The translations under genes and the position numbers were made by a program. Under the pieces are notes generated by a model that ran no database searches, was not told the DNA's origin, and saw only the letters and a list, made by a program, of their open reading frames with translations. This document shows positions 33,898-54,813 of a stretch of DNA of 64,000 nt, in pieces. The number at the start of each line of letters is the position of its first letter. Position 1 is the stretch's first letter. Origin of the DNA: Streptomyces camelliae (lineage in GTDB: Bacteria; Actinomycetota; Actinomycetes; Streptomycetales; Streptomycetaceae); assembly GCF_027625935.1 (NCBI RefSeq), contig NZ_CP115300.1:6820001-6884000 (forward strand), in the 5' to 3' direction.

Positions 33898-33994
33898 CCG
33901 AAAGGGATTCGCTCTCGACGGGCCCCACGTAGAGTCGCCTGGTCGGCTGGTGAAACGCTCGCGGAAAGCGTTCGGGTTGAACTCGGGGGAACGT

Positions 33995-37409: not shown

Positions 37410-38342
37410 TCAGCGCGCCCTGCGTGGCACACCGTCCTCCAGCCGCTTGCGACCGATGTAGCCGATGCGGATCTTGCCCTCCTCGGTGATCAGCCGGAAG
37501 TGGATACGCCCAGGCCTGGGCCGATAGCGCGTGTGCAGGCTGAACAACTCCCGGGTCCCGTCGAGGTCGGTGAAGTGACAGAGACCCAGGTTGATACGGG
37601 TGTCGCTCTCGGGTACGACCTTGACGGCCCAGACCGGCTCAGACTCCCCGGGGCGCCATGCCTCCGCGGCGGCGTTGAGGCGGAGCAGTTCCTCACGGAC
37701 GGAGGGCACGGCCACGCCCGGCAGGTCCCTGAGGTTCTCTTCCACTCCGGGGACGAACTGGAGGTACGGGAAGAGGTCGTTCCGCTGGTCCCACAGATCC
37801 GCACCTGTGATTGCGGAGGCGGCGGCTGTCTCGCGGATCCATTCCTCGTGCTCCTCGACGTGTGCGTGTGCCGAGGCGTGTCTGATGTCCGCTGTGTCCT
37901 GGACGTATCCGTCCTCGTCGAGGAGCTCGTAGTCCACCTTGAGCCAGGAGGCTTCCCAGCAGGGAGCTGAGGGGAGGCTGACGGCGGGCGAGTTCATGAT
38001 ATGGGCGGCCGCCAGGCCGAGCGCCGGCTTCCCTTCGTGGCGGTACTCGCTCTCCTGGTCGTCCGGAGGTTTGGGCAGTACGCCGGAGAGCGGTGCCTTG
38101 CGCTGGAGCACCTGGCGCATGAAACGCCAGGCATCCCGGCTCTGCGGTTCGTTGCGCCACTTCTGCAGGTAGTAGCCGGGCGCGATCTCCAGGTCCTCCA
38201 GCCGAACCTCGCTCACCAGGGTCGTACCGCGGTGGATCTGCCAGATGCGTTGGCACACCTTGACGAAGTCGAGCATGGCCTGGCGGGCCTCGTCCTGCGT
38301 GCAGTCCGAGTCGCAGGACCTCTCGTTGAAGAAGATCAGCAT
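37410..38342 (-). CDS. unrecognised 310-aa protein of the DUF262/DUF3696 operon
   Basis: No family recognised. The protein is soluble, rich in Trp, Glu and Arg, with no membrane segment or P-loop. N-terminus MLIFFNERSCDSDCTQDEAR carries two close cysteines; later blocks are VCQRIWQIHRGTTLVSEVRL, SYLQKW-like GYYLQKWRNEPQSRDAWRFM and the C-terminal FRLITEEGKIRIGYIGRKRL. The start is the ATG at 38342; the longer frame would overlap the upstream ATPase region. It is the last gene of the run and lies 59 bp after the DUF3696 ATPase. Position suggests it is the effector or target-specific part of that module; this is inference. Confidence 0.7.
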   Translation of the reverse strand: MLIFFNERSCDSDCTQDEARQAMLDFVKVCQRIWQIHRGTTLVSEVRLEDLEIAPGYYLQKWRNEPQSRDAWRFMRQVLQRKAPLSGVLPKPPDDQESEYRHEGKPALGLAAAHIMNSPAVSLPSAPCWEASWLKVDYELLDEDGYVQDTADIRHASAHAHVEEHEEWIRETAAASAITGADLWDQRNDLFPYLQFVPGVEENLRDLPGVAVPSVREELLRLNAAAEAWRPGESEPVWAVKVVPESDTRINLGLCHFTDLDGTRELFSLHTRYRPRPGRIHFRLITEEGKIRIGYIGRKRLEDGVPRRAR

Positions 38343-38401
38343 GTGTGACGCGCCCCCCTGGCGTGCGAGACAGACTGATGACGGCCGAAGTACCTGGGCG
38401 G

Positions 38402-39553
38402 TCAGCCGAGGAGCTGGTCGAGCGTGTGGTCCGTCTCGTCGAAGAACCCCTTGGGCCATTCGGACAGCATGCCGTCCTCACCGACGGCGGGAGAGACGAT
38501 CTCGACATCCGCTCCATTGCCACGGAAGTAGTGAACCGCCGTGTCGGACGCCTTCAGCCGTCCCTGTTTGACCGCGAGACGCGTGCCGTCGAGGACGTGG
38601 TCGCTGTGCGTCTCCACGATCACCTGGGCCCCCGCCGACGCCGCGGCGGCGATCAGGGCGGCCATCCGGGCCTGACCACGTGGGTGGAGATGCGCCTCAG
38701 GGTTTTCCAGGAGGATCAGGCTGCCGGGCGCAGCGGTGAGACAGGCTACGACGATCGGCAGGGCGTAGGTGAGGCCGAACCCGACATTGGTGGGCCGGCG
38801 CCGGCTGGATGAGTCCAGACCGGCCGTGCCGCCGAAGCCGTAGCTGAGCCGGACCGAGTCGGTCCCTGGGATCTCCGTCGCCTCCAGGTTGACCCCCGGG
38901 CACAGTTCCTGCATCCACGCCCCAACCTGGTCCAGGAAGGTGTGTGCGCGTGCTTCGGGGTGCCGCAGGGGTCCTTCGGGCACGAGATCCTGGGCATGGT
39001 GTCGCAGGAAGTTGACGGTGTGCTCGCCGCGCGAGCCGAGGAAGCCCCGTCCGATGGCCTGGTGGTGTGACCTGGGATAGCTGGTCGCCGGGACGATGCG
39101 GTCGGCCTTGAGGTACTGGAAGCGGCGGGAGAAGAGCGGGATCTCGCCCCAGAGGGCTGGGTCCACCGTGCGGGTACGGCGCAGGGGCAGCACGTCCTCC
39201 TCGGAGACGTACCGCGCGGACCACTCGTACATCTGCCCGTCCGCCATGCGGAAGCCGACAGTGATCAGGGGGTCCGGCTCGCCCTCCGCACGCACGAAGT
39301 CCTCGTGGAGCACATCCTGTCCGGTCCCGAGCTCGACCAGGTCGCCGTCGAGGAGGAAGCCCCCGCGCTCGTCCGAGTCGCCGTCGATGGAGAGGAGCGT
39401 GCCCGAGTCGTACGACTGGCGCAGCAGGGCGAGGGACTGCAGGACCGTGCTTTTGCCGGACGAGTTGAGGCCGGTGAGCAGGGTGACCGGGGCGAGCGGG
39501 ATGTGGGCCGAGCGGAAGGCCTTGAAGTTGGTCAGCGACAACTGGTCGATCAC
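38402..39553 (-). CDS. AAA/SMC-like ATPase with DUF3696
   Basis: A 383-aa ABC/SMC-type ATPase. Walker A TLLTGLNSSGKSTVLQSL (about 24-41), Walker B LILLENPEAHLHPRGQARM (about 288), D-loop/H-loop region VIVETHSDHVLDGTRLAV, and a C-terminal DUF3696-like segment (SPAVGEDGMLSEWPKGFFDE). Homologues are annotated DUF3696 and occur in defence islands. Its ATG overlaps the DUF262 gene stop by 4 bp, so the two products are co-translated and probably interact. Confidence 0.88.
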   Translation of the reverse strand: MIDQLSLTNFKAFRSAHIPLAPVTLLTGLNSSGKSTVLQSLALLRQSYDSGTLLSIDGDSDERGGFLLDGDLVELGTGQDVLHEDFVRAEGEPDPLITVGFRMADGQMYEWSARYVSEEDVLPLRRTRTVDPALWGEIPLFSRRFQYLKADRIVPATSYPRSHHQAIGRGFLGSRGEHTVNFLRHHAQDLVPEGPLRHPEARAHTFLDQVGAWMQELCPGVNLEATEIPGTDSVRLSYGFGGTAGLDSSSRRRPTNVGFGLTYALPIVVACLTAAPGSLILLENPEAHLHPRGQARMAALIAAAASAGAQVIVETHSDHVLDGTRLAVKQGRLKASDTAVHYFRGNGADVEIVSPAVGEDGMLSEWPKGFFDETDHTLDQLLG

Positions 39554-40863
39554 TGTGCGATACCCCTGTTGTTGGAGAGAACGCCCCGAAAGAGCTCACT
39601 GACCCTCTCGAATCGGGTGTACACCTTGGCGCGGTCGCCGGTGCCGACGGATACGGCGCGTTCGAAGTACCGGTCGGTCATGAGCTGCTGGAAACCCTCG
39701 ACCACCTGCTCCCGGGCCGCTACCAACCTGTGCCGCTCGGCGTCAGAGAGCTCGGCCAGGTTCACTGCCACGGCTTCGAAGATCGCCTTGTTGACGGGGG
39801 AGCGCCGAGTCTGACCTGGGTAGAGCTTGCGGAAGGCATGTCCGTCGAAGATCGCCTCGGCCGTCCGCATGGCCTGTGTGAAGTCTCTCGCGTGCGCGTC
39901 CCGTTCCTCCTGGGACAGCCTGTTGATCTGCCGCATGGTGAGCGCGAGGAACTGGTCGAAGTCCTGGGCCTTGAAGGAGTCGGGCGGTGTGAGGCGGAAG
40001 GCCAGAGTGCGCAGCACCATCTCGCGGTCGGCCATGCGTTCGCTGTAGACGCCGTTGCTGGTGGCCGACTTGAACGCCTCCGACTCGGCGAGCGAGGAGA
40101 GCAGCTGACGGGCCGGCCCAGGGATGAGCGCATGCCGGATCTCCTGCCGGGTGAGCGGGAGACCGCCGGTATTGATCCGGGCGAAGATGTTGAACTTGAC
40201 CGCTTCCGGAGTGCCGGGCCGGATGACATGGATGACGACCTGTGTCTCGTTCAGGCGGATCTGCAGCCGCCCGGTCAGGTCCTTGTATCCCTTGCCCTCG
40301 AAGTCGTCCTTCAGGTACTCCAGGCCGCGCAGCCGAAGCGGCCCCTTGTCGATGCCGGCCACCTCGGCGAGCGCCTCGGGCGCGATGAACCGGGCGATGG
40401 CGGTCAGCCGCTGGATGCCATCGACGATGGCCCACGAGCTGTCCTGGGTCCAGTCGCTGTCGTCCAGCTCGGCCGCGTAGAAGGAGGGGATCGGAATCCG
40501 CAGCAACAGCGACTCGATCAGCCTGCTCTGCTGCTCGTCCGACCAGATCCCGGCACGGCGCTGGAAGTCGGGAGCGAGATCGATCATGCGGTTGCTCAGC
40601 CGGGACATGAGCAGGTTGATGGTCGGATTACTGGTCTGGATCTCGATCTTGGAGGGGTCGTACGGCGCCGTGATCCGGTCCGCCGCGTCCTCGGCCTCGC
40701 TGTCGGGAAGCTCCAGCTCGACATCGGTGCTCCGGCCGTCGGCGCCGACCTCGACCTGGAACCCTCCGCTGTCCTCGGCGTGAGCGTGGTCCAGATAGCG
40801 GCTGAACAGCGACTGCTGCTCCCGCGCCACCCCACGGCTGCCGATGCTGTCCTCCGACGACAT
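39550..40863 (-). CDS. DUF262 (ParB/GmrS-like) protein
   Basis: A 437-aa protein with a DUF262 domain in the middle (about 70-290): LAPDFQRRAGIWSDEQQSRL, LRIPIPSFYAAE, WAIVDGIQRLTAIARFI (the DGQQR-type motif, here DGIQR), FNIFARINTGGLPLTRQEIR and HALIPG. DUF262 is the ParB-like nucleotidase fold found in GmrSD type IV restriction enzymes, SspE and BREX BrxU. The HNH nuclease domain (DUF1524) that usually follows is absent, so cleavage would need a partner. RBS GAGG before ATG 40863. First gene of a tightly spaced trio. Confidence 0.88.
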   Translation of the reverse strand: MSSEDSIGSRGVAREQQSLFSRYLDHAHAEDSGGFQVEVGADGRSTDVELELPDSEAEDAADRITAPYDPSKIEIQTSNPTINLLMSRLSNRMIDLAPDFQRRAGIWSDEQQSRLIESLLLRIPIPSFYAAELDDSDWTQDSSWAIVDGIQRLTAIARFIAPEALAEVAGIDKGPLRLRGLEYLKDDFEGKGYKDLTGRLQIRLNETQVVIHVIRPGTPEAVKFNIFARINTGGLPLTRQEIRHALIPGPARQLLSSLAESEAFKSATSNGVYSERMADREMVLRTLAFRLTPPDSFKAQDFDQFLALTMRQINRLSQEERDAHARDFTQAMRTAEAIFDGHAFRKLYPGQTRRSPVNKAIFEAVAVNLAELSDAERHRLVAAREQVVEGFQQLMTDRYFERAVSVGTGDRAKVYTRFERVSELFRGVLSNNRGIAQ

Positions 40864-40972: not shown

Positions 40973-41632
40973 TCACGTCCACTGTTCGAGTTCGGCCGCG
41001 AAGTCGGCGTACGAGCGGTTGCGGCTCGGATCGCACTGGGTGAGCAGGTTGTGTGCCACGGCCGCCTTCATGACCTCAGGTGCGTCGCTCTCCCGGTACG
41101 GGGGCTGGGTCAGCTGGGCCTTCAGGCGTTCCTTCGAGCCCTCCGCTATGGCACCGAGATCGCGCCTGCGGTCCTGGTCGGACAGTCGCCACCCAGGTCT
41201 GACCTTCTCAAAGGCTTCGGGGAACAGCATCAGCCAGGCTTCCATCTCGTCGGCGGCCAGCGCGAGGGCCGTGTCGCAGCCGAAGGTCTTCTGCAGGCCG
41301 CCGGCGAGCTGCTTGCGGCGCTCGTCGTAGCGTTCGTCTATGACGGCGTCGAGGTCCACGTGCACGACGATTCCGGCGAGTTGGGCCTGGGCCTTCTGGG
41401 CCAGACCGTTGGCGAGCATGCGCAGCTTGTCGAGCCGGGGGACCAGTTGGCCCTGCGCCTTGCTGAGCGCCATCTTCGTCTTTATCTCGACGAGCTTCGG
41501 GCGCCTCGTCCTGGGCCACGGTCCCAGGGCAGGCACGAGATGCTTCAGTACATCCCTGTCGTTCTGCCCTTCCCCCGCGATGACGATCACCGACTTCGCA
41601 GGAGCGGCACCGCCCCGCTTGTTCGACGCCAT
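40973..41632 (-). CDS. TOPRIM-like partner of the ATPase (DUF4276/RloB class)
   Basis: A 219-aa protein. The N-terminal half has the TOPRIM-type acidic pattern: VIVIAGEGQNDRDVLKHLV (conserved Glu) and GIVVHVDLDAVIDERYDERR (DxD). Middle block ALAADEMEAWLMLFPEAF is typical of DUF4276/RloB-like proteins. The start ATG at 41632 overlaps the ATPase stop codon as TAATG, a strong translational coupling; the longer upstream start is less likely. In PARIS (AriA-AriB) and AbiL an SMC-like ATPase works with a TOPRIM-fold effector; this pair has the same architecture but the specific family is uncertain. Confidence 0.8.
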   Translation of the reverse strand: MASNKRGGAAPAKSVIVIAGEGQNDRDVLKHLVPALGPWPRTRRPKLVEIKTKMALSKAQGQLVPRLDKLRMLANGLAQKAQAQLAGIVVHVDLDAVIDERYDERRKQLAGGLQKTFGCDTALALAADEMEAWLMLFPEAFEKVRPGWRLSDQDRRRDLGAIAEGSKERLKAQLTQPPYRESDAPEVMKAAVAHNLLTQCDPSRNRSYADFAAELEQWT

Positions 41633-42855
41633 TACCGTCCTCCGCCCAGCGCCCCCGAGAACCACAGCTCGCCCAGGGGCAGCCCCTCGGACGCCTCGAC
41701 CACCTCGTGGATCAGCTCCGTGCTGGTCGCCGGGATCCGGGAGGCGCCCTTCTCGTCCCGCTCGCAGATCACGACCTCCTCGGGCACGAGCTGGTCGACG
41801 AGGACCGGGGCGTGCGTGGTGGCGATCAGCTGCGTCCGCTCGCTCGCCTCGCGCATCCGCTCGGCGACCAGCTCAAGGGCGTGCGGATGCAGTCCGTGGT
41901 CGATCTCCTCGATGCACGTCAGCACCGGTGGGTTCGGATCGTGCAGGAGGGCGAGCAGACACAGGATGCGCACGGTGCCGAAGGAGGCGTCCGCGAGGCT
42001 GGTACGGCCGCGCAGGTTGCGCTCCTTGAGCTGGACACCGACCCGGTCGGAGTGCCCACGGCTGGGGAGTACGTCGATGTCCTCGACGGACGGCACCAGG
42101 GCGGTGACGTCCTCCAGCAGCCGGGACCAGGCCTCGGCGTCCTTGCGGAGTTCCAGGAGGAAGTCGGCGAGGTTGGAGGCGTCGTTGGCCAGGAGCTGCC
42201 CCGGGAACCCGACCGGCGAGGGGCGCCTCGCGGCACGTACGTCGGCGTCGAAGACCCGTACGTCGGTGAGATGCTTCGCCAGCCCGCGTATCGCGGTCGC
42301 GGAAGGACCGCCGGCGGGCAGGGGAAGGGTGTCCGCCTGGAGTCCGGTGGCCATCCGGGGGATCTCGGGCGGGCGGGACGGCTGCTCGCCAGGTACGGCG
42401 CTGTCGACGGCCGCCGTGTCCTGGAAGAGGTCGAAGGCTGACTCCGCGCCGGGTTCGGTATGCAGAACGAACCGCTCCCTGCGCGAGAAGTGGTACCGGC
42501 CACGGCTGTCACCCGCCACCCGTCGGCGGAGCAGGCTGAGGGTGTACTCGTCCGGGAACCTCTCGGAGGCGTGCTCGCTCCACAGTCCTTCGAGACTGAT
42601 GTGCATCCCCGAGAGGGTGTGGTCGCCGCCCCGGTAGGCGATCTCCTCGTATCCGCCCCGTGCGTCCAGCGTGGCCTCGATTCCGGCCCTCGCCACGTCC
42701 GCGAGGAACTCGAACACCCTGAGAACGTTCGACTTGCCCGCCGCGTTGGGTCCGACCAGGACGGCGAGGGGCCCCAGGGGCAGCTCCATCCGGGTCAGCG
42801 TGCGGAAGTTCTCCACGCGGAGTCGCAGAAATCGGCTGTCCAAGCGGCGCGCCAA
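41632..42855 (-). CDS. SMC/OLD-type AAA ATPase
   Basis: A 407-aa ATPase: FLRLRVENFRTLTRMELPLG at the start, Walker A VLVGPNAAGKSNVLRVFEF (33-51), a long helical middle, signature-like region SLADASFGTVRILCLLALL, Walker B VLTCIEEIDHGLHPHALELV and H-loop QLIATTHAPVLVDQLVPEE. No TOPRIM domain of its own; the next gene supplies it. The start is uncertain: TTG 42855 gives the longest N-terminus with a weak GGAACGGA upstream, and TTG 42840 is an alternative. The 120 bp upstream to 42976 hold no gene I can see. Confidence 0.85.
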   Translation of the reverse strand: MARRLDSRFLRLRVENFRTLTRMELPLGPLAVLVGPNAAGKSNVLRVFEFLADVARAGIEATLDARGGYEEIAYRGGDHTLSGMHISLEGLWSEHASERFPDEYTLSLLRRRVAGDSRGRYHFSRRERFVLHTEPGAESAFDLFQDTAAVDSAVPGEQPSRPPEIPRMATGLQADTLPLPAGGPSATAIRGLAKHLTDVRVFDADVRAARRPSPVGFPGQLLANDASNLADFLLELRKDAEAWSRLLEDVTALVPSVEDIDVLPSRGHSDRVGVQLKERNLRGRTSLADASFGTVRILCLLALLHDPNPPVLTCIEEIDHGLHPHALELVAERMREASERTQLIATTHAPVLVDQLVPEEVVICERDEKGASRIPATSTELIHEVVEASEGLPLGELWFSGALGGGR

Positions 42856-43530: not shown

Positions 43531-44367
43531 GTGAGTGAGGAAGTGCGGGCGCCGGAGGGCGAGTACGAGGTCGGTACGGGCATCCTGGTCGTCTTCGGGC
43601 GGCAACTGAAGCTGTTCCGGGAGCGGGCGGGGCTGGACCGGGCGACGTTCGGGTCGATGGTGGGGTACTCCGCGTCGACCATTGCTTCCTTCGAGCAGGG
43701 GAGGCGGATTCCACCGCCCAAGTTCATCGACCAGGCGGATGAACTGCTGAGTGCGGGTGGGGTGTTGAGTGCCAGTAAGGAGGAGGTGGCTCGGGCACAG
43801 TATCCGGCGTTCTTTCGGGATGCGGCGCGGTTGGAGGCAGAGGCGGTTGAGCTCCACGTGTACGCCGCCCAGGCTGTACCGGGGCTCTTGCAGACGGAAG
43901 AGTACGCGCGAGCCGTGTTCACCATGCGGCGTCCGCTGCTGGACGAGGAGACGGTCGTGCAACGTGTCGCAGCGCGGCTGGCCCGACAGGAGATCTTCTC
44001 CCGGGTGCCGATGCCCACCATCAGCTTCGTCATCGAGGAGTCGGTTCTACGGCGCCCGCTGGGCGGCTGGTCGGTGATGCGGGGCCAGCTGGAGCAGATG
44101 CTTCTGATCGGGCAACGGCGCAACGTCGAGATCCAGGTCATGCCGACGGAGCGGGAAGAGCATGCTGGGCTGGCTGGTCCGTTCACCTTGATCGAAACCA
44201 AGGAAGGGCGGAGGATCGCGTATGTGGAGGCGCACAAGGACAGCCGTCTCTACACGGAGCGGAAGTCGGTCCGCGCGTTCGAGGAGCAGTACGGGATCCT
44301 GCGGGCCGAGGCTCTCACTCCGCGAGAATCGCTGGCCCTTATTGAGAAGTTGCTAGGGGAGACATGA
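43531..44367 (+). CDS. XRE-type HTH regulator with DUF5753 (WhiJ-like)
   Basis: A 278-aa protein with an N-terminal helix-turn-helix (about 25-80: RERAGLDRATFGSMVGYSAS, TIASFEQGRRIPPPKF) and a C-terminal DUF5753 domain (about 95-270: AQAVPGLLQTEEYARAVF, VIEESVLRRPLGG, VQVMPTEREEHAGL-like IQVMPTEREEHAGLAGPFTL). WhiJ-type regulators of this class modulate Streptomyces development together with small DUF397 partners. GTG start at 43531. Its stop overlaps the DUF397 start by 4 bp. Confidence 0.93.
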   Translation: MSEEVRAPEGEYEVGTGILVVFGRQLKLFRERAGLDRATFGSMVGYSASTIASFEQGRRIPPPKFIDQADELLSAGGVLSASKEEVARAQYPAFFRDAARLEAEAVELHVYAAQAVPGLLQTEEYARAVFTMRRPLLDEETVVQRVAARLARQEIFSRVPMPTISFVIEESVLRRPLGGWSVMRGQLEQMLLIGQRRNVEIQVMPTEREEHAGLAGPFTLIETKEGRRIAYVEAHKDSRLYTERKSVRAFEEQYGILRAEALTPRESLALIEKLLGET

Positions 44368-44546
44368 GCGTCGAAGCGCTGACCTGGGTCAAGAGCAGCT
44401 ACAGCAGCGGCGAAGGCGGCGAGTGCGTCGAGGTCGCCGCCACCTCGGACGCTGTGCACGTCCGTGACTCCAAGGACACGAGCCGACCTGCACTGACCGT
44501 GGAGCCCGGCACGTGGAGCGCGTTCGTGGAGTTCGCTGCGGTCTGA
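44364..44546 (+). CDS. DUF397 protein
   Basis: A 60-aa protein with the family pattern LTWVKSSYSSGEGGECVEVA, VHVRDSKD and TWSAFVEF. DUF397 proteins are thought to be small partners (antitoxin-like) of DUF5753 regulators. ATGA overlap with the preceding gene. Confidence 0.93.
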   Translation: MSVEALTWVKSSYSSGEGGECVEVAATSDAVHVRDSKDTSRPALTVEPGTWSAFVEFAAV

Positions 44547-44593: not shown

Positions 44594-47500
44594 TCATGCC
44601 GAGGCGGGTTCCGGTGGTGACCAGCGGCCGGCGGCGATCTCCGCGTCCAGGCGGGCCTGGAAGTGCGCGTGCGCGGCCCGCATTTCGGCTTCTCGGTCGG
44701 CCTTGTAGAAGGGGGCCTGGTAGCCCTCGGGAGGCTCTACATGGGCAGGGTCAGACAAGTGCTGAAGGAGTGCTTCGTACGAAGATTTGTTTTGCCTATA
44801 TCCATACGCGTACGGATCCGCTGCAATTCGGCGACCATTTGCATCAAAGTACATCGAATCCTCACGATTCATGAGAATTGGATACCTTGACCGAAAAATA
44901 GCAACGAGCTGCTCCGCGGTAATGCCGAACCAGACGGCTACCAGGGCGTCCAGTTCCACCAGGGCGGCCCGGCGCTGATACTCCGACCGCAGGGGGGAAT
45001 CTGCATTCCAGCGTGATGTGAGGTCGGCTGCAATGGGTCGAAGGTTAAGCCATCCATTATAGGCCCATTCTTCCTTTTCTAGTCGTGCTGGATTGCAAAG
45101 GTCTTCCCATAGTGTGGAGTAGGCGTCCGTGATGACATTCAGGCGCAGCGCTCGGATTAGCAGCGCATCGGCGAGCGGGTGATTCGGGTCGGCAGCTGGC
45201 ATCTTCTCCATGTCGGTTGTTTGGAAGTTTGACCTACCGGAGAGGCGAAGCAGGTAGTCCATCGGCAGAGAAGACCACATTCCGGCCTGCAATACCGTGA
45301 GTCTCGGATCTGGCCACGCGACACAGAAAATACTGTCGTTGTGGGTCGGTCCGGGAGGGATAATTGCAGCGAATAGGCTTCTCTCTGTGCTCTTTGGGTC
45401 GATTACCCTTCTCCAGGCCAGTCTAAAGAATTCGACAGGCTTGTGTGTATCAGATTTCGAGGGCCAGGACTCCTGTTGGCTCACGAGTTCCTCTATCGCA
45501 CATGCTGGCGCGAAGAGTGTCCTGGGGATTGATTTCGCGTGAATATTTTTAATGTCCCACGGAGACCAATCCTTGGAGTTCTTCATGGGCATGTTTGGCT
45601 GTTTCGAAAACGGCGTGGAGGCGGAGATGTGGGACCCCTGGAGAATCACCTCGTGCCAACTGTCGGGCTGGTGAAGGACATCTCTTATAAGTCCCTTCTT
45701 TTTTGCGGCATTCACGTCGAACCCTCTGCTGAACCATGGGCTTGCCTCACCAATTCTTGCGGGGGCCGCGGAGAGGGCAGAGATTACTCCCTGTTCGGCG
45801 CTCGTGATGGGGTATCGCAGTGGAGTCTGGGACACCGGGTTCTGGGTATCGCCATCAAGGCGACGCCATTGGGCGAGTTGATCCCTGGTTACCCGAACAA
45901 TCCTGCTGCGATGTGGGCGTCGATCCCAATCCCCGCGGAATTTTTGCCCAGGCATCTCGCCGGTTCCGTCATGCCTCAAGGATTCAATTAGCGTCTCCGC
46001 GCTATATAGCTGGCTCAGGTTGAGGAAGTCAATATCTTTAGGGTGTCCGTAGATGTGGATTCCGAATTCAAGGGTTCGACCAGCCTCAAAGGCCCAGTTT
46101 CCTGCGTTAACAAAGCTTGCATGAACTAGGAGCCTGGAGTAAGCGGCCTCGCGGATGCCGCCTTCCTTGACACCATCGAAGTGGGTGTCCTGGTGAATCA
46201 GGCCGATAATTCCTGCCTGGTCTGAGTGTTGCCAAGTTGCCTGCATGAAGACGCGGTAAAGATTTGGGCGCGTTCCGCCGGAAAGCGGGTAAGTGCATGC
46301 CGAGCTAAGGAACGTCCCGATTCCAGAGTTCTGGCTCAATTCGGAGAGGTAATAGGTGTCGTTTGAGTTGAGAACTTCCGCTTTGCGTAGACGTTTCTCC
46401 TCTGTGGTGGGGTCTTCTGCCAGTTTGAACCAAGGTTCAAACTCCGCGAGAACTGCGTCTTCAAGCCAATCAGGCCGCACCCAAGGCGGATTCCCCACCT
46501 GCAAATCAAACCCACCCGCCCGCGCAAACACCTGCGCGAACTCCAACTCCCAATGAAAGAACCCCTGCTGCCCAGCAACATCCCGAGCAACCCCCGCCCA
46601 TGGATACCGCTCCTCCAAATGATGAGCCGGATCCATACCCATCAAATCCGGCAGCCCATCCTCATACGGCTCAAGCTCATCCAGCCGCTCGAACTCGGAG
46701 ATCAGCGAGTCCGAAGGCACATCCCGGCGCCCCAGCAACGACTCCGCGAAGTCCAGCCAGTCGTCAAGGTCGGCCAGCGGAATCACAGCGCGGCGCTGCT
46801 CACCCACCGCCTCCTTCCGGCGCCCACTGCGCCGCTTGTCCAAGTCACCCCGGGTCAGTTCGACCTGCTTGGCCTCGACCCCGAAACCAGGCAGCGCATC
46901 GGCCTCCCACGACATGAGCACATCCGCGCCCGAGGAGGACTCGAACGCCCCCGACTGCTCCAGCTCGACGACCCGCCGGTACCGCTCATCGCTCCCGTCA
47001 AGGAGCGCAGCGCTCTGCACGGGCCAGAACCACAGCGCACACCACGCGTCCATCAGCGTCTTCAGGCGCCAGTAAGGCGTGTCGACGGCCTCAAGATCCG
47101 CCAGGACCTTCTCCCGCTGCACAGCCACCTCAGGCGACCGCAGCCAATCACCCTCCGCGCCCCACACCTCGATCCGCCGCGAGATGTCCCGCTCGGAGAT
47201 CTCCAGGCGTCGTACGACCAGCCCCCACAGGTACTCGACCCGCCGGGCCAGCCCCTGCAACCGCTCGGTCTGCTTCTTGGACGGTGACTTGGTGACGGCC
47301 TTCCGCCACGCACCCAGGGCCTTGGCCCCCTCAGGGGCCAGCGCCTTCGCCTCCTTCTCGGCCGCGACCGAGCCCCACTCCTTCGCGGGCAGCAGGAAGT
47401 GATGAACAGCCCCCTCCGGAAGCCCCTCGCCCGCCTCCGTCAACGGGAAGCGCTCCGGAGTGGCCCCCAGCCAGCCCCCCTTCTTCAGTCTCTCGGCGGC

Positions 47501-49654
47501 ATACACCTCCCTCCGGCCGCCGATCAGCGAGTTACCCCTCCTCAAATGCAGCCCGAACCACGGCGCCTCCATCCCCGGATGCATCGTGTTCAGCCACAGC
47601 GAGACCTCGGCCAGCTCCACAGCCGTCGAGTTCAGGTCCACGCCGTACGAGTTGTGCAGCGCGATGTACGCCTTCGCCTTCTGCAGCTCGACCGCGTACT
47701 TCTCGGTGTCGATGGCGACGCCCAACTCGTCCTGCCGGCGCCGCAGATACTCCGCCGCCACCTGATTGATGGCCTCGTTCAGGAACGCGCCCGAGCCGAG
47801 CGCAGGCTCGCAGATCTTCCAGTCCAGCAGTTCCCGTGCCTCGGTCACCTCACCGTCCTGGTCCAGGCGGTGCTGCAAGGCGAGCTGCACCGTGACCTTC
47901 GTCAGCGACTCGGGCGTGTAGTACGACGCAGAGGTCTGCCGGTCGCGGCCGGAGAGGCGGTAGACGAAGGAACCGGGGCGGTATCGGACCCGCACCTCCT
48001 CGCCGGTCTCCTCGTCCCGGCGCCGGACGAAGACAGAGTCCGGGTACTCGTCCGCCTTCGATGCGGGCACCAGCCAGGAGCCGTCCTTCGAGTAGCCGCC
48101 CTTGGCGACCTCGTACAGCTCCTCGTCCGCCACGAAGCCGGAGTACGACATCAGGCCCTCGTACACGGCACCGAGCTGGTTGATGCCGAGCTGGGCGTAG
48201 GAGATGAAGCCGCCGCGCTCGCCCTTCCTGCCCCGGGTGAGCATCAGCAGGCGCAGGACGCGGTACAGGGTGGCGTTGCGCAGGCGGGTGTCGACGTACA
48301 CCGGCTCGCCGGTCTCGTCCTCGTCGAAGCGCGGGTCCACCACCGAGCGCCGGCCGATCAGGCGGATCGACTCCGGTTCGAAGAGCTTGGAGTGCAGGGG
48401 CTCGAAGCGCAGGCCGATGTCCTCCGATACGACGTCGTCGACGGTCTCGGCGGCTGCGCCATGCGTCCGGCGGGAGCGGTAGCCCTCCTGGACCATGCGG
48501 AAGAGCAGGTCCAACGAGTCGTACAGGTACGTACCCTCGCGGGCCTTCTCGCCCACCAGATCCCGCTCCGCCACCAGCTCGCCGAGCCGCCCGAGGCCGT
48601 ACCCCTGGTGGTACTCGGGGTAGTCCGACGGCAGGATGCCCAGTTCGGGGCGGGCCTCGGCGTAGAGGAGGAACAGGATGCGGTACAGGTAGCGCAGCGA
48701 CTCACGTGTCAACTGCTTGGACAGTTCCGGGAGTTCCGCGATCTCCTCCGGGCGGAGGCCCTTCGCGCGGATGCGGTTCAGTACCTCGTTCGCGATCAGC
48801 TCCACCGACAGCCGAAGCCCGTCGCGCAGGTCGCTCGACACGCCCACCGCGTGCTTCGTCGACTTGTCGACCAGCGTGGCGAGCGGGTTCTCGCCGCCCT
48901 CCTCCGGCGTCCGCAGGGAGTCCGCACCGAACAGGGCCGCCAGGGTGTCGAGTTCGCCGCCCGCACGGGTGTCGTTGCGTTCCAGCGCCGCGTCCAGGGA
49001 GGCCGCCAGGTAGCGGCCCTCGCCCCACACCGTACGGTCGGCCAGGATCACCACACCGCCGACCAGCAGCAGGACGTACCGTGGGGGTTCCTCGGTCGCG
49101 AACAGGAACGACGCCAGTTTCGAGCCCGTCGTGATCTCGGTGGAGGCGTCGACGGCCAGGGGATGGAGGAGGCGGCCGGGGCCCGCCGGGTCCAGGGCCG
49201 CGTCCGGTTCCGCCGCCCAGCCGCAGTCCAGGGCGACCAGGCCCGGCTCGGCGTGGGCCACCTGGATCTCGTAGGTGTGGTCCGCGCGGTCCACCGTCAG
49301 CGTCTGCGGCTTCGCGTCGTAGCCCAGGGCTCGCAGGACGTCGGCGTTGAGGGCCGCCGCCCGCTCACGCCAGGACGGGGCGTCGTAGGTCGTCGCGTCG
49401 TCGTCCGGTTCGGCCGCAGCCTCCGCGAAGGACGCGCGCGCCCGGAAGTAGGGGCGGCGCAGCTCGCGCAGGCCCAGGCGCGGTGTCACCGGGAGGGCGT
49501 CCTCGGCGTCCGTGCCCTCTGCCGGGCGGGCGGCCGCCTCCTCCCGTTCCTTCCAGGTCGCGAGCAGTCCGGCCTTGAGGTCCTTCGGGAAGACCTCGGC
49601 CAGGTAGTGCGCGGAGAAGTAGTCGCCGCGGTTGACGAGGGAGTCGTACGACAT
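44594..49654 (-). CDS. PglX/DrmMI-like adenine-specific DNA methylase
   Basis: A 1686-aa class I adenine methylase. The N-terminal 560 residues are helical and resemble the type IIG/PglX N-part. SAM motif I is ICEPALGSGAFLNEAINQVA (about 610), target motif IV is QVGNPPWVRPDW (about 1055), and helices around GVDLNSTAVELAEVSLWLNT lie between. There is no visible PD-(D/E)xK nuclease. The C-terminal part after NPPW (about residues 1065-1630, DNA 44770-46460) should include the target recognition domain. It is AT-rich with codons such as ATA and AGA, unlike the rest. It starts 29 bp after the SNF2 helicase, as drmD-drmMI do in class 1 DISARM; PglX of BREX is the other relative. Confidence 0.87.
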   Translation of the reverse strand: MSYDSLVNRGDYFSAHYLAEVFPKDLKAGLLATWKEREEAAARPAEGTDAEDALPVTPRLGLRELRRPYFRARASFAEAAAEPDDDATTYDAPSWRERAAALNADVLRALGYDAKPQTLTVDRADHTYEIQVAHAEPGLVALDCGWAAEPDAALDPAGPGRLLHPLAVDASTEITTGSKLASFLFATEEPPRYVLLLVGGVVILADRTVWGEGRYLAASLDAALERNDTRAGGELDTLAALFGADSLRTPEEGGENPLATLVDKSTKHAVGVSSDLRDGLRLSVELIANEVLNRIRAKGLRPEEIAELPELSKQLTRESLRYLYRILFLLYAEARPELGILPSDYPEYHQGYGLGRLGELVAERDLVGEKAREGTYLYDSLDLLFRMVQEGYRSRRTHGAAAETVDDVVSEDIGLRFEPLHSKLFEPESIRLIGRRSVVDPRFDEDETGEPVYVDTRLRNATLYRVLRLLMLTRGRKGERGGFISYAQLGINQLGAVYEGLMSYSGFVADEELYEVAKGGYSKDGSWLVPASKADEYPDSVFVRRRDEETGEEVRVRYRPGSFVYRLSGRDRQTSASYYTPESLTKVTVQLALQHRLDQDGEVTEARELLDWKICEPALGSGAFLNEAINQVAAEYLRRRQDELGVAIDTEKYAVELQKAKAYIALHNSYGVDLNSTAVELAEVSLWLNTMHPGMEAPWFGLHLRRGNSLIGGRREVYAAERLKKGGWLGATPERFPLTEAGEGLPEGAVHHFLLPAKEWGSVAAEKEAKALAPEGAKALGAWRKAVTKSPSKKQTERLQGLARRVEYLWGLVVRRLEISERDISRRIEVWGAEGDWLRSPEVAVQREKVLADLEAVDTPYWRLKTLMDAWCALWFWPVQSAALLDGSDERYRRVVELEQSGAFESSSGADVLMSWEADALPGFGVEAKQVELTRGDLDKRRSGRRKEAVGEQRRAVIPLADLDDWLDFAESLLGRRDVPSDSLISEFERLDELEPYEDGLPDLMGMDPAHHLEERYPWAGVARDVAGQQGFFHWELEFAQVFARAGGFDLQVGNPPWVRPDWLEDAVLAEFEPWFKLAEDPTTEEKRLRKAEVLNSNDTYYLSELSQNSGIGTFLSSACTYPLSGGTRPNLYRVFMQATWQHSDQAGIIGLIHQDTHFDGVKEGGIREAAYSRLLVHASFVNAGNWAFEAGRTLEFGIHIYGHPKDIDFLNLSQLYSAETLIESLRHDGTGEMPGQKFRGDWDRRPHRSRIVRVTRDQLAQWRRLDGDTQNPVSQTPLRYPITSAEQGVISALSAAPARIGEASPWFSRGFDVNAAKKKGLIRDVLHQPDSWHEVILQGSHISASTPFSKQPNMPMKNSKDWSPWDIKNIHAKSIPRTLFAPACAIEELVSQQESWPSKSDTHKPVEFFRLAWRRVIDPKSTERSLFAAIIPPGPTHNDSIFCVAWPDPRLTVLQAGMWSSLPMDYLLRLSGRSNFQTTDMEKMPAADPNHPLADALLIRALRLNVITDAYSTLWEDLCNPARLEKEEWAYNGWLNLRPIAADLTSRWNADSPLRSEYQRRAALVELDALVAVWFGITAEQLVAIFRSRYPILMNREDSMYFDANGRRIAADPYAYGYRQNKSSYEALLQHLSDPAHVEPPEGYQAPFYKADREAEMRAAHAHFQARLDAEIAAGRWSPPEPASA

Positions 49655-49682
49655 GACGGAATGGACCTCGGGGCTCGGGTGA

Positions 49683-52556
49683 TCAGTCGGTGGAGTCGAG
49701 GACGGCGAGGACGCGGAGCATCGGGCGGCCGGTGGTCAGGAGAGAGTCGGCCAGACCGGCCAGGTCGGTCTTGGTGCGCTCGCCCGCCAGTGTCGGCTGC
49801 TCCCACGTACCGAGACGCTGCTTGTACTTCTCGATCGGGTCGGCCAGCGCCTTGTCCCAGGCGGCGCTGTGCCGGCGCAGAAAGCGTTCGGCCGCCTCCA
49901 GGGCGCCCGGGATACCCGAACTCAGCAGGTGAAGGTCGTGGTCGTGCAGCGGGTTGGCCATGGTCGGGCCGACACCCGCGCGGCGCAGTATGCCCACCAT
50001 GTCGTCGGTGACCTCGCCGCGCTGCACGGCCATCCACTTCACCACGGTCGGCCGGCCCAGCGCGTTCGAGAAGATGCCCTGGACGAGGTAGGTGGGAGCG
50101 TCGACGTCCGCCGTGATGACCGGCGCCTCCTGACGGCCGAGCCGCACCAGCACCTTGTCCGTCAGCCACTCCACCACCGGGTGGAGGTCGGTGAGGAGCG
50201 AGATCTCCGGCCAGCTGGACGAGGACGACTCCCGGGCCCGGACGAGGGAGAGGTCGGCGAGCTTGCGGTTCAGCGTGACCAGCAGGCGTTCGTGCAGGCG
50301 CTGTTCGCGTCGGTAGTCCGGCGGCAGTGACTTCATGCGGTGGACGAGGTCGGACGGCGGCCGGAAGGAGATCAGGCCGGTCTCGGCGTCCTGGTCCAGC
50401 TCCAGCTGCCGCTGCGCGTCGGGGAAGACCTCGCGGATCGCGTCGTCGATGAAGTCCCGTGTGCCGGCGAACAGGCGCGGTACGTCCGCCGGGGCGGGCG
50501 GAACCGTGCCGTGGGGGTCGTCGGACGCGTCGGGCGCGTCGGGATCGCCGGTGCCGTCGCCGACCGCGCCGAAGAAGTCCGCCAGGAAGTCGGTGCCGGT
50601 GTCCTCGTCCACGGCGGCCTGCGCCGTGGCGTCCAGCGACTCGTCGACCGTACGGCCTCGCAGCAGGTCCTGGATCAGCGACTTCTCCTCCGCCTCCGCG
50701 CGGTAGAGACCGGAGACCGCCTCGGCCGTGCCCAGGCTGCGGTGCGCCTCGTCCTCGCGTTCCAGCAGGCGCTCGGCGACCGTGCGGTCGTCCTTCGCGC
50801 CGTCCGTCTCGCTGGTGAGGATCAACGCCCGGAACTGCGGCTGGTGGGCCTGTCCGTAGCGGTCGATACGGCCGTTGCGCTGCTCGATGCGGATCAGCGA
50901 CCAGGGGACGTCGTAGTGGATGAGGTGGTGGCACTGGCGGTGCAGGTTGACACCCTCGGATGCCACGTCACCCGTGAACAGCAGACGTACCGGCGTGTCC
51001 GCCAGGCCGAAGTCCTCGACGCATTGCATCTGCTGTTCGTCGGAGAGGCCGCCGTGCATGACGCGCGCGGCTTCCCGCTGGGCCCTGCCCTTGAAGCCGA
51101 GAGCCGCAGGGACCTTCTCCCGCAGCCACTCCAGGGTCTGCACGCGTTCGGAGAAGACGACGACCCGGGTGTCGCTCTGCGGCCCGACGCCGATCTCCCG
51201 CAGCTGTCGCACCAGAGACTCGAACTTCGCCGAGTCCGTCTCCGTCATGACGAACGCCAGGTCGCTCAGACGCCGGAGCGCGGCGAGCTCGGCGTCCGGC
51301 GCCGGGTCCTCCTTCGCCTTCAGCGTCCTGATCCGGGCGTCGACCGTCGCGGCCAGGGCCACGTGCGAGGAGAGGAAGGACTTGAGGAGCGTGTACGGGA
51401 AGAGGCGGCTCTCGCTCACCGACGGCGTGCCGTCGTCCCGCGGGAGCCACACCTGTGCCAGCTCCTCGAAGATCTTCTCCTCGGCGGGGGTCGCCGCACA
51501 GTGCACCGAGACGCTGGGACCGCGGTCCGCCCACTGTCCCCTCATCTGCTCGCGCACCTCGGGGCTGATCTTCGTACGCCGGATGAAGAGGTGCTCGATG
51601 TCCTTCGCCTCGTAACGCTCCGGGTCGCGGATCGCGGCAGGGTCGAGCAGGGAGATCAGCTCGGCGAAGGAACGGGCGTCGCCGTTGTGCGGGGTGGCCG
51701 AGGCGAGGATCAGGGCGTCGGTCTGCGGGGCGAGCAGCCGGGCCAGCTGATTGCGCAGCGAGCCGCGGTTGATGAGATTGTGGGACTCGTCGATCACGAC
51801 CGCGTCCCAGGTGATGCGCTCCAGATGATGCTTGTACTGGTCCGTGTTCTTCAGGGTGTCGATGGAGACGATGACCCGCTTGAAGTACGTGAACGGGTTG
51901 CGGCCGGCCGGGATCTCCCGCTGAATGCGTTCGATGCCGACCGAGTCGAGACGGATCAGCGGAATCGCGAAGCGGGTCCACAACTCGTGCTGGAACTGCT
52001 CCAGGACGTGCTGGGGGGTCACGACCAGAATGCGTTCGCCGCGGCCCCGGCGGATCAGCTCCGCGAGCGTCAGCCCGATCTCCAGCGTCTTGCCGAGGCC
52101 CACCACGTCGGCGATGAGCATGCGCGGACGCAGGTTCCTGCCGGACAACGCCAGCTGCGCGGGCCGGTGCTGATACGGCAGCGCGTCGAGGAGAAAGGTG
52201 TCCGCGAGGGCCAGTCCGCGTTCGGACTGCGGAAGCGGCGTCTTGCGCAGAATGGCCTCCAGGAAGAGGCGGCTGCGCCGGAAGTTCGGGGAGTCGTCGG
52301 AGGCCAGCCTGGTCCTGCGCGGATCCATCAACTGCACGTCGTCGAGCTTGGTGAAGAAGACGGCTTCCTGGTCCCGCACGAACTCCGAGACACCCACCGC
52401 CTCGATACGGTCACCGTCGTGGGCGGTGTGCCGGACGTTGCGGACCAGCCACTCCTCGTCGCGGACCTCGATCTGCGAGCCGGGCGGATACTTCGCGTCC
52501 CCTTCATCGCTGCTGAGAGGAACGGTCTCAGCAACGCCGGACGGCTCGACGGTCAC
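49683..52556 (-). CDS. SNF2-family helicase (DrmD-like)
   Basis: A 957-aa superfamily-2 DNA translocase. Q-like motif LPYQHRPAQLAL, Walker A IADVVGLGKTLEIGLTLAEL (148-167), motif II VVIDESHNLINRG (DESH), motif III ILASATPHNGDA, and C-terminal motifs VVVFSERVQTLEWLRE, LLFTGDVASEGVNLHRQC and RIEQRNGRIDRYGQ. Sequence type and size fit the SNF2-like DrmD of class 1 DISARM. GTG start. It lies 57 bp after the kinase gene and just before the methylase gene, so it is the middle gene of an operon. DrmA, DrmB and DrmC are not next to it. Confidence 0.88.
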   Translation of the reverse strand: MTVEPSGVAETVPLSSDEGDAKYPPGSQIEVRDEEWLVRNVRHTAHDGDRIEAVGVSEFVRDQEAVFFTKLDDVQLMDPRRTRLASDDSPNFRRSRLFLEAILRKTPLPQSERGLALADTFLLDALPYQHRPAQLALSGRNLRPRMLIADVVGLGKTLEIGLTLAELIRRGRGERILVVTPQHVLEQFQHELWTRFAIPLIRLDSVGIERIQREIPAGRNPFTYFKRVIVSIDTLKNTDQYKHHLERITWDAVVIDESHNLINRGSLRNQLARLLAPQTDALILASATPHNGDARSFAELISLLDPAAIRDPERYEAKDIEHLFIRRTKISPEVREQMRGQWADRGPSVSVHCAATPAEEKIFEELAQVWLPRDDGTPSVSESRLFPYTLLKSFLSSHVALAATVDARIRTLKAKEDPAPDAELAALRRLSDLAFVMTETDSAKFESLVRQLREIGVGPQSDTRVVVFSERVQTLEWLREKVPAALGFKGRAQREAARVMHGGLSDEQQMQCVEDFGLADTPVRLLFTGDVASEGVNLHRQCHHLIHYDVPWSLIRIEQRNGRIDRYGQAHQPQFRALILTSETDGAKDDRTVAERLLEREDEAHRSLGTAEAVSGLYRAEAEEKSLIQDLLRGRTVDESLDATAQAAVDEDTGTDFLADFFGAVGDGTGDPDAPDASDDPHGTVPPAPADVPRLFAGTRDFIDDAIREVFPDAQRQLELDQDAETGLISFRPPSDLVHRMKSLPPDYRREQRLHERLLVTLNRKLADLSLVRARESSSSSWPEISLLTDLHPVVEWLTDKVLVRLGRQEAPVITADVDAPTYLVQGIFSNALGRPTVVKWMAVQRGEVTDDMVGILRRAGVGPTMANPLHDHDLHLLSSGIPGALEAAERFLRRHSAAWDKALADPIEKYKQRLGTWEQPTLAGERTKTDLAGLADSLLTTGRPMLRVLAVLDSTD

Positions 52557-52613
52557 GGGGCTGCCTCCTGCGCGAGAACGGGGGTGTCGGCGGGGTCGGG
52601 TGTCAGTCGGATG

Positions 52614-53822
52614 TCAGAACTTGGCTCGTTGAGCGTAGGTCTCACGCAGCTGTTGGGCCACGCGCCTGGCCTGCGCGGAATGACCCACTCGCGGTGGGCG
52701 CGGCCGCTGCGGAGGGTGCGGCCGTTGCGGGGGGTGCGGAGGGTGCGCAGAGTGCGCAGGGTGCTCCCTCACCGTCGGGGTGTAGGGGACGGCTGATGGG
52801 GGTGCCGGCTCGGCGGGGGCGGGTGGGCCGGGCTGCTGGGGAGCCGTGACTGTGGGCAGGTCCTGAGGGGAGGGGGCGGGGGGCGCCGGGGCGATGGCCG
52901 GAGACGTCGTGGCCGTCGTGGTCGTCGTAACCGTCGTGGTCGCCGTGGTCGCCGTGTACGTGGTCAGGCGGCGGCGCGCCTGTGCGACGGTGAGCCCCTC
53001 GTTCTCGATGACGGCGCGGCACTGCTGCACGACGCCCTGCAGGGTGGGCCGGGCGTTCGGGTCGTAGGCCAGCATGGCGGTCAGCAGAGGGACCAGCTGG
53101 TCCGGGACACCGGTCAGGTCCGGCTGCGCGTCGGCCTTGGTGATCAGATGGAAGAGAGCGTGGATGTTCTCGGCCTGGAACGGGTAGTGGCCGGTCGCCG
53201 CGTACAGCAGCACGGCACCGAGCGCATAGACGTCGACCGGCGCGAGCAGGGGCTTGATGCCGTTCGCCTGCTCCGGTGCCATGCAGGTGGGCGTGCCGAG
53301 GACCGTGTTGGGGGCGGTCAGGGAAGCGCTGGACTCCGTGAAGACCGCGAGTCCGAAGTCGATGATCTTCGGGCCGTTCGGACCGAGCAGGATGTTGGCG
53401 GGCTTGAGATCGCGATGCAGCAGGCCCTGCTTGTGCACGCCGGAGAGTGCCTCGGCGAGGGTGGCGCCGAGCGAGGCGACCAGCGCCGCGGGCAGCGGTC
53501 CGCAGTCGGCCACGTGTCGGCGCAGGTCCGGGCCGTCCACGTATTCGGTGGCAAGCCAGGGCTGGTCGGCCCCGGGGTCCGCGTCCATGAAGGCGGCGAT
53601 GCGCGGACCCCACACGGTCTTCAGCACCTCCACCTCCTGGGCGAAGCGCAACCGGGTCTCCGAGTCGACCACCGCCGGCTTGATGACCTTGACCGCCGCG
53701 GGCTCACCACCTGGTGACTCGCCGAGGTACACCTGTCCCATACCGCCGTGACCGATGCGGCCCAGCAACTCGAAGTCACCGAGCCTGACCGGATCCTCCG
53801 GGCTCAGCGGCGCCGCGTTCAC
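52614..53822 (-). CDS. soluble Hanks-type Ser/Thr protein kinase
   Basis: A 402-aa kinase. Gly loop GRIGHGGMGQVYLG (21-34), catalytic Lys45 in AAVKVIKPA, HRDLKPANILL (136-146), DFG (155-157), TPTCMAPEQANG and VDVYALGAVLLYAATG. The kinase domain ends near 280. A Thr-rich stretch (TTYTATTATTTVTTTTTATT) and a Pro/His-rich tail follow. There is no membrane helix or PASTA domain, so it is cytosolic. It leads the operon with the SNF2 helicase and the DNA methylase. In BREX type 2 (Pgl) the kinase PglW accompanies PglX, so a signalling or activation role in defence is plausible. PglY and PglZ are missing. Confidence 0.9.
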   Translation of the reverse strand: MNAAPLSPEDPVRLGDFELLGRIGHGGMGQVYLGESPGGEPAAVKVIKPAVVDSETRLRFAQEVEVLKTVWGPRIAAFMDADPGADQPWLATEYVDGPDLRRHVADCGPLPAALVASLGATLAEALSGVHKQGLLHRDLKPANILLGPNGPKIIDFGLAVFTESSASLTAPNTVLGTPTCMAPEQANGIKPLLAPVDVYALGAVLLYAATGHYPFQAENIHALFHLITKADAQPDLTGVPDQLVPLLTAMLAYDPNARPTLQGVVQQCRAVIENEGLTVAQARRRLTTYTATTATTTVTTTTTATTSPAIAPAPPAPSPQDLPTVTAPQQPGPPAPAEPAPPSAVPYTPTVREHPAHSAHPPHPPQRPHPPQRPRPPRVGHSAQARRVAQQLRETYAQRAKF

Positions 53823-54048: not shown

Positions 54049-54813
54049 ATGGACCAGTCGACCGACTCCCGGTTTCTCGCCGCCACCGCCGACCGCCTCG
54101 CCGCCCTGCCCACCGTGCAGGCCGTCGCTCTCGGCGGCTCCCGGGCCCAGGGCACCCACCGCCCCGACAGCGACTGGGACATGGCGATCTACTACCGCGG
54201 CCCCTTCGACCCCGATGACCTGCGGGCCGTCGGCTGGGAGGGCGAGGTGTCCGAGGTCGGCGGCTGGGGTGGCGGGGTGTTCAACGGCGGGGCCTGGCTG
54301 AACGTCGACGGGCGCCGGGTCGATGTGCACTACCGGGATCTCGACGTGGTCGAGCACGAGCTGGCGGAGGCCGAGGAGGGACGGTTCCGGGTGGAGCCGC
54401 TGCTCTTCCATCTCGCCGGCATTCCCACGTACCTGCTCGTGGCCGAACTCGCCGTCAACCAGGTGCTCAGGGGCACCCTTCCGCGCCCGGCGGGCTACCC
54501 GGACAAGCTGCGGGTCAGCGCCGCCGAGCGCTGGCACGGCACCGCTCGCGTCACCCTCGGCTACGCCAAGGCCAACCACGCCCCCCACGGCCGGCTCACC
54601 GAGACCGCCGGAGCCATCGCCACCGCCGCCACCCAGGCCGCGCACGGGGTGCTCGCGGCGCGCGGGGAGTGGGTGACCAACGAGAAGCGGCTGCTGGAGC
54701 GGGCCGGGCTGCGAGGGATCGACGCCGTCGTGGGCGGGCTGCGGGCCGAACCGGCCGCCCTGCTCGGCGCCGTGGCTCAGGCGGAGGAGGCCATCGCGGC
54801 ATCGCGTTCATGA
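54049..54813 (+). CDS. nucleotidyltransferase domain protein
   Basis: A 254-aa protein of the NTP_transf_2/aminoglycoside-type nucleotidyltransferase fold. Active-site motif ALGGSRAQGTHRPDSDWDMA (GS...DxD) at about 26-45 and a third acidic strand RVDVHYRDLDVVEHEL. The C-terminal helical half is as in other Streptomyces homologues (DUF4037-like annotations). Substrate unknown; it could adenylylate small molecules or proteins. Its stop codon lies in the first unit of a 13-bp tandem repeat. Confidence 0.85.
   Translation: MDQSTDSRFLAATADRLAALPTVQAVALGGSRAQGTHRPDSDWDMAIYYRGPFDPDDLRAVGWEGEVSEVGGWGGGVFNGGAWLNVDGRRVDVHYRDLDVVEHELAEAEEGRFRVEPLLFHLAGIPTYLLVAELAVNQVLRGTLPRPAGYPDKLRVSAAERWHGTARVTLGYAKANHAPHGRLTETAGAIATAATQAAHGVLAARGEWVTNEKRLLERAGLRGIDAVVGGLRAEPAALLGAVAQAEEAIAASRS

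Follow-up and report, generated by a model that had tools for sequence, protein, structure and literature searches.

A protein kinase gene precedes a probable, split ARMADA type II defence locus in Streptomyces camelliae

Does a run of three minus-strand genes encoding a protein kinase, an SNF2 helicase and a DNA methylase make up a defence system of its own, or is it one part of a larger system? This question is raised by a stretch of DNA from Streptomyces camelliae (contig NZ_CP115300.1, positions 6,820,001 to 6,884,000 of a 9.6 Mb genome in three contigs), which we refer to as the window, meaning the whole 64,000 nucleotides that were analysed. An original prediction, made from the sequence alone, had proposed the three genes as a compact new relative of the BREX and DISARM systems in which the kinase controls the effector. 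Our analysis instead suggests, with a probability of roughly 80%, that the helicase and methylase genes are the front half (armA-armB) of an ARMADA type II system, preceded by the kinase gene and completed by armC and armD further downstream. The three open reading frames and their domains were found where they had been predicted:

52614-53822, minus strand: Ser/Thr protein kinase, 402 amino acids, GTG start (Pfam PF00069, 1.3e-42)
49683-52556, minus strand: armA, a BrxHII/RapA/DrmD-like SNF2 helicase, 957 amino acids, GTG start (SNF2 and Helicase_C domains)
44594-49654, minus strand: armB, a PglX-like adenine methylase, 1686 amino acids, ATG start (Pfam Eco57I, 3.6e-11)

Lys45 is indeed the kinase lysine by a check of the catalytic residues, and the NPPW motif of the methylase is present, starting at residue 1055. 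The window ArmA also carries a Walker A motif (GLGKT) at 153 and DESH at 256, and ArmB carries GSGAF at 620. The predicted spacing of 57 bp between kinase and helicase genes was confirmed, and the second gap, given as 26 bp, measures 28 bp (49655-49682).

ARMADA type II was described in a 2025 preprint by Bell et al. as a four-protein system of Escherichia coli, armABCD (PMC12458937). As far as the available part of that source goes, all four Arm proteins are required, and protection is direct rather than abortive. A cluster on an E. coli plasmid (L082) has seven of the eight residues that Bell et al. mutated, numbered as in the preprint (ArmA K136 and D236, ArmB N971, ArmC K110 and D234, ArmD K266 and D454; the eighth, ArmB G605, lay outside this comparison), and we therefore used it as the E. 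coli reference. The window ArmA is 36% identical to E. coli ArmA over 838 amino acids, and ArmB is 32% identical to its counterpart over about 1672. Two further genes on the same strand match the remaining Arm proteins:

25700-32602, minus strand: armC, a YprA-like helicase, 2300 amino acids (Pfam DEAD, Helicase_C and MZB/DUF1998)
23436-25703, minus strand: armD, a GajB-like UvrD helicase with an N-terminal RelE-like domain, 755 amino acids (Pfam UvrD domains)

ArmC is 29% identical to E. coli ArmC over 2019 amino acids (664 bits), and ArmD is 33% identical to E. coli ArmD over about 749. The best PADLOC match of ArmC is a DruE3 model (289 bits), a likeness to Druantia type III (DruH-DruE). 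However, ArmC is much closer to E. coli ArmC than to DruE from that E. coli strain, our sole Druantia yardstick, with which it aligned at 124 and 75 bits in two pieces of the helicase region; nor did DruH appear among the PADLOC matches listed for the neighbouring open reading frames that were scanned. ArmD matches GajB in PADLOC. Structure prediction for its residues 1-120 gave one model with a predicted local distance difference test score (pLDDT) of 67 and four at about 40, with a best Foldseek match to RelE toxins at E 1.4e-5, and Pfam offers no more than a weak ParE_like match (E 0.094).

The window thus has all four Arm proteins in the order A-B-C-D on one strand, with the catalytic motifs and the RelE-UvrD fusion of ArmD that mark ARMADA type II; it differs from the E. 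coli system by the kinase gene before armA, by the 12 kb that other genes take up between armB and armC, and by sequence identities of 29-36%. The partner genes at 23436-32602 speak against a compact, self-contained trio, and the proposed new core would be that of a described system. That the trio is related to DISARM and BREX was rightly seen. The original prediction had also named, as a finding that would tell against it, that the genes belong to a complete DISARM whose other parts are the helicases at 23-37 kb; this came true in spirit, in that the larger system is a DISARM-related one, ARMADA type II, to which the helicases at 23.4-32.6 kb would belong and the one at 34-37 kb would not.

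The gene order recurs in relatives. Loci were fetched around the ArmA matches of three samples: those in 8 of 396 genomes sampled across the phylum, in 30 of 199 genomes of the same genus (32 places, reduced to 31 loci by leaving out G419, which starts inside the gene) and in 42 of 394 genomes of the class (44 loci, 38 of them newly fetched). A set of named relatives added 79 loci found with the methylase. In 34 of 35 loci with G handles (hereafter G loci), armA, armB and armC follow one another on one strand. Downstream of armC, armD was seen in 27 of the 35, while the DNA fetched for another 7 stopped inside armC or shortly past it; one locus, G564a, has its methylase split over two frames. 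In the class sample armC was present in 29 of the 38 newly fetched loci, and 8 of the 38 stretches ended before armB or within 6.6 kb after it. The distance between armB and armC varies widely: in half of the 34 G loci (17) the two genes adjoin or overlap, with a spacing of about -3 to +10 bp, and in the other 17 they are separated by 1.9-19.7 kb. The gap is 12.0 kb in the window and 7.9-20.7 kb in seven named relatives chosen for the split (one of them, n25, being the same locus as G432). Among the 79 loci, eight from Micromonosporaceae and Streptosporangiaceae (L046, L049, L052, L056, L062, L067, L071 and L072) have DruE-like and UvrD-like genes that adjoin or closely follow the methylase gene, with both visible within the 9-kb flank in five.

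In the 79-locus set, 70 loci contain the helicase together with readable DNA upstream of it, and in all 70 the kinase gene stands directly before armA; of the other nine, seven are cut by the contig start and two (L031 and L034) contain neither helicase nor kinase. The same holds for all 31 of the same-genus loci, which partly coincide with the first set (four of the kinases are identical), and the kinase is thus truly tied to the helicase and methylase genes, as had been supposed. In the class sample, the kinase was found in 25 of 42 readable loci and was missing from 17, with two more loci cut, and the phylum sample has it in 4 of 8. In a six-frame search, the place directly before armA held no kinase gene in the E. 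coli plasmid L082 or in the records from Nostoc, Martelella, Tsukamurella and Mycobacterium, and by annotation there is none at this place in two E. coli chromosomes and Cylindrospermopsis; Nostoc does have kinases 7-12 kb upstream of armA, which belong to another gene group. The prediction had named a kinase unlinked from the other two genes in relatives as the finding that would count against it, and the linkage holds throughout the kinase-bearing clade and lapses outside it. Because loci with and without the kinase occur within single genus codes (g276, G838 with and G909 without; g290, G901 with and G752 without), the presence of the kinase tracks the ArmA lineage more closely than it does taxonomy.

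Could the kinase be a mere hitch-hiker, or a host-type kinase stuck to the operon with no role in defence? The existence of ARMADA type II without a kinase in E. coli, Nostoc, Martelella and many Actinomycetes favours this explanation, which survives best among the alternatives but which we consider unlikely. The presence of the kinase in all 31 same-genus loci argues against it, as do the co-divergence of the kinase with ArmA and its conserved catalytic residues. Kinase-bearing ArmA proteins formed one clade (44 rows against 23) with a Shimodaira-Hasegawa-like approximate likelihood ratio (SH-aLRT) support of 98 in a 67-row tree from a quick search, and a second ArmA tree placed 46 of 55 rows in the kinase-bearing clade with a support of 96. 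Distances between kinases tracked those between ArmA proteins (r = 0.96, n = 102, with 0 of 999 permutations as high), a correlation that common descent by itself would produce as well. Two genomes that each hold two systems say more: in these the kinases are 37% and 39% identical and the ArmA proteins 48% and 50%, so that within a genome the kinases have diverged at least as far as their ArmA partners. We also compared the ARMADA kinases with 29 of the 37 listed other kinases of the window genome, taken as paralogs from that genome only. A free tree required two changes and recovered the ARMADA kinases as one clade in 36% of bootstrap trees, and a tree holding 47 of them as one clade was not rejected (approximately unbiased test, p-AU 0.54, log-likelihood 1.2 higher).

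The active site of these kinases is conserved. Across 103 ARMADA-linked kinases (99 distinct), the catalytic lysine and the HRD, DFG and APE residues are kept in 102-103, with K45 in 102 and D138, N143 and D155 in all 103; the activation-loop positions T169 and T177 are Ser or Thr in every one. By a simple hydropathy scan, a membrane segment after residue 270 occurs in none of the 103, compared with 13 of the 29 paralogs. The window kinase ends in a Pro/Ala-rich linker followed by the C-terminal tail LRETYAQRAKF, and 96 of the 103 kinases (92 of 99 distinct) carry an R..YA motif in their final 40 residues, as against 1 of 29 paralogs. The exceptions are L057, whose frame ends early, L042 and L045, which have the variant LALAY, and G435, G457, G519 and G564b, which have another tail. 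The preservation of the active site, and of a tail behind a linker that is hypervariable and Pro/Ala-rich, suggests that the kinase is docked and at work.

Read directly from the sequences, then, the locus comprises five genes conserved in order and strand, with a single kinase-bearing clade and an intact kinase active site, and the kinase-bearing, split ARMADA type II is best read as a phospho-controlled subtype. In such a system ArmB would mark host DNA by N6-adenine methylation, and ArmA, ArmC (a helicase with a putative C-terminal nuclease region) and ArmD would act on unmarked invading DNA. The kinase, which we infer to act on ARMADA, may dock on one of the Arm proteins through its conserved C-terminal tail and phosphorylate that protein, and phosphorylation could gate assembly or restriction, for instance by holding ARMADA back until infection; an XRE/DUF397 regulator pair in the armB-armC gap probably sets expression of the locus or of its cargo. 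In its most specific form this would be a distinct five-protein subtype in which a eukaryotic-like kinase was acquired once and retained, its R..YA helix docks on an Arm subunit and the kinase turns restriction on or off by phosphorylation, and a standing slot for more defence genes between armB and armC is under XRE/DUF397 control, a scenario that we offer tentatively, as a whole rather doubtful. The docking partner there might be the RelE domain of ArmD, bound as an antitoxin helix would bind it.

Several observations weigh against such a subtype. E. coli ARMADA works without a kinase, kinase-less clades share the bacterial class, the family and even the genus code with kinase-bearing ones, and the kinase frame is broken in two of the 70 linked loci (L057 and L063). 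The basal clade (G435, G457, G519 and G564b) has a different tail, and R..YA could be an inherited relic. In a scan for features specific to the kinase-bearing clade, four Ser/Thr columns came up (ArmA T82 and T837; ArmB T588 and S820), along with five Tyr columns, all of these in ArmB; neither ArmA nor ArmB has an inserted or added domain, and so the scan yields no convincing phosphosite. The nuclease assignment of the ArmC C-terminus, Vsr-type in ARMADA type II, is tentative: a possible motif, DGFEFH, lies at 1876 of the window protein and its DG..[FY]H form is shared with E. coli ArmC, but it is missing from 16 of 45 ArmC-like frames. Gene order also has exceptions, with G537 decayed (its methylase broken and no armC within the fetched stretch), G836 rearranged, and a Cylindrospermopsis plasmid (L236) showing the order C-D-A-B by annotated position and size.

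It is very unlikely, in our view, that the trio of kinase, helicase and methylase is complete in itself, with armC and armD as mere neighbours. The 57 and 28 bp spacings would fit such a system, as would the 12 kb that separate armB from armC in the window and the two orphan armB loci, L031 and L034. However, armC follows on the same strand in nearly all G loci and touches or overlaps armB in half of those, and the E. coli system requires every one of its four genes, according to the available part of the preprint (PMC12458937). The orphan loci lack helicase and kinase as well, and their strains hold the trio elsewhere (L026 and L006). In L031 and L034, armB stands beside an XRE/DUF397 pair without armA or kinase, which could reflect decay or a modification-only guard.

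A class 1 DISARM (DrmD, DrmMI, DrmA, DrmB, DrmC) with distant DrmA and DrmB, in which the helicase is DrmD and the methylase DrmMI, is more improbable still. The pairing of an SNF2 helicase with a PglX-like methylase and the presence of a YprA-family helicase are DISARM-like; DrmD is the best PADLOC match of the helicase (264.2 bits, with one DrmA model lower at 189.5), the methylase matches DrmMI models at 169.8 bits, and the genome holds a DrmA-DrmB pair at about 5.745-5.750 Mb. However, the helicase scores 285 bits against the NCBIfam DrmD model, whose cut-off is 610, and the methylase matches REase_MTase_IIG far better, at 1000.7 bits in PADLOC. The linkage in relatives is to ArmC, which has weak local similarity (36 bits) to the distant DrmA. 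Unlike DISARM, the window has an ArmC that fuses helicase and DUF1998 parts, has no DrmC beside it, and adds ArmD and the kinase. The statement that PglY, PglZ and DrmA, DrmB and DrmC are missing beside the trio was borne out, none of them being the best PADLOC match of any of 18 open reading frames at about 22.5-54.6 kb, yet the DrmA-DrmB pair (L192; 814 and 232 bits in PADLOC) does exist about 1.1 Mb away. A GajB-like UvrD gene and a TmtA-like gene adjoin that pair, and none of the five neighbours scanned matched DrmD, DrmM or DrmC at 1e-20.

A relative of BREX type 2 (Pgl) with a PglW-like kinase can be set aside as almost certainly wrong: a kinase does accompany a PglX-like methylase, and the helicase matches BrxHII at 163 bits in PADLOC, but a genome-wide search for PglZ gave 0 matches (its control was positive in 2 of 14 genomes), and the kinase, which matches PglW at 54 bits against a cut-off of 990, has 402 amino acids and none of the PglW-type architecture, given as 1400-1600 residues with NERD and two kinase modules in the available part of PMC12839542. 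MADS is likewise a methylase system with a kinase, and Mad6 is the best PADLOC match of the window kinase (199 bits). However, the kinase reaches 112.9 bits with the NCBIfam MAD6 model, below its cut-off of 460, and the MADS gene set is otherwise unlike the window locus.

The armB-armC gap of the window is filled mostly by candidate defence genes:

44364-44546, plus strand: DUF397 protein, partner of the XRE regulator (Pfam PF04149, 4e-22)
43531-44367, plus strand: XRE/DUF5753 regulator (Pfam PF19054, 8.8e-53)
41632-42855, minus strand: HEC-01A ATPase, embedded cargo (PADLOC, 541 bits)
40973-41665, minus strand: HEC-01B, embedded cargo (PADLOC, 238 bits)
39550-40863, minus strand: NsnA, GmrSD_N/DUF262, embedded cargo (PADLOC, 446 bits; Pfam GmrSD_N)
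38402-39553, minus strand: NsnB, embedded cargo (PADLOC, 393 bits)
37410-38459, minus strand: NsnC, embedded cargo (PADLOC, 346 bits)
33950-37087, plus strand: Mokosh-like helicase with a PLD domain and a C-terminal DUF5710, embedded cargo (PADLOC MkoA 198 and MkoC 154 bits; Pfam)
32767-33897, plus strand: Beta_protein (PADLOC PD-Lambda-2_C), embedded cargo (Pfam PF14350, 3.3e-43; PADLOC, 58.5 bits)

Scans with Pfam and PADLOC found no kinase domain in the Mokosh-like protein. A DUF397 match occurs in the gap of all 17 expanded G loci, and the remaining cargo varies over 24 gaps, including Nsn, HEC-01, Mokosh-like, caspase-domain and unnamed proteins. One family is present in 13 of the 24 gaps, its single scanned member being HATPase_c_2, and one gap holds a Mokosh-like protein with an N-terminal caspase domain (L009:16630-20550). 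The junction is best read as a slot for extra genes, and since 8 of 10 cargo proteins scanned had no PADLOC match at 1e-6, it is a place to seek new defence genes. On two Streptomyces plasmids (L237 and L238), genes for an ATP-binding protein, an XRE-type (helix-turn-helix) regulator and DUF397 lie directly before the kinase gene, so the regulator set accompanies the system in two arrangements; in G519 the XRE/DUF397 pair is also directly before the kinase gene. The XRE/DUF397 pairs tested in S. coelicolor were regulators and none was a toxin-antitoxin system, according to the available part of PMC10364602.

The core is a known one, ARMADA type II, and the kinase-bearing split form is new as far as the searched papers tell. 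Neither the main text of PMC12458937, whose supplementary tables may list a kinase, nor the available part of PMC13192584 contains the word 'kinase' (0 occurrences each), and our literature searches found no paper that ties a kinase to ARMADA. A suspected orphan trio thus becomes a testable five-gene system, with a kinase added to the four-protein ARMADA described in 2025. If the kinase does gate ARMADA, this would be a phospho-switch outside Pgl in the modification-based immunity of Actinomycetes. Such loci are easily misread, both because their best PADLOC 2023 matches are a type IIG enzyme, DrmD, DruE and GajB and because the halves of the operon can lie up to 20.7 kb apart.

A few neighbouring genes deserve mention. 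In the window, a gene for an MntA-like nucleotidyltransferase (54049-54813) diverges from the kinase gene and is kept in the close relatives L001, L005 and L058. On a Tsukamurella plasmid (L084), armA is immediately preceded by UvrD, helicase-related and DUF1998 genes, and the annotation splits armC into two genes. ArmAB DNA was present in 520 of 5426 E. coli genomes, with neighbours inspected in three records; in L233 and L234 a pair encoding an STY4851 family protein and a DEAD/DEAH helicase, resembling Druantia III, lies directly upstream of armA.

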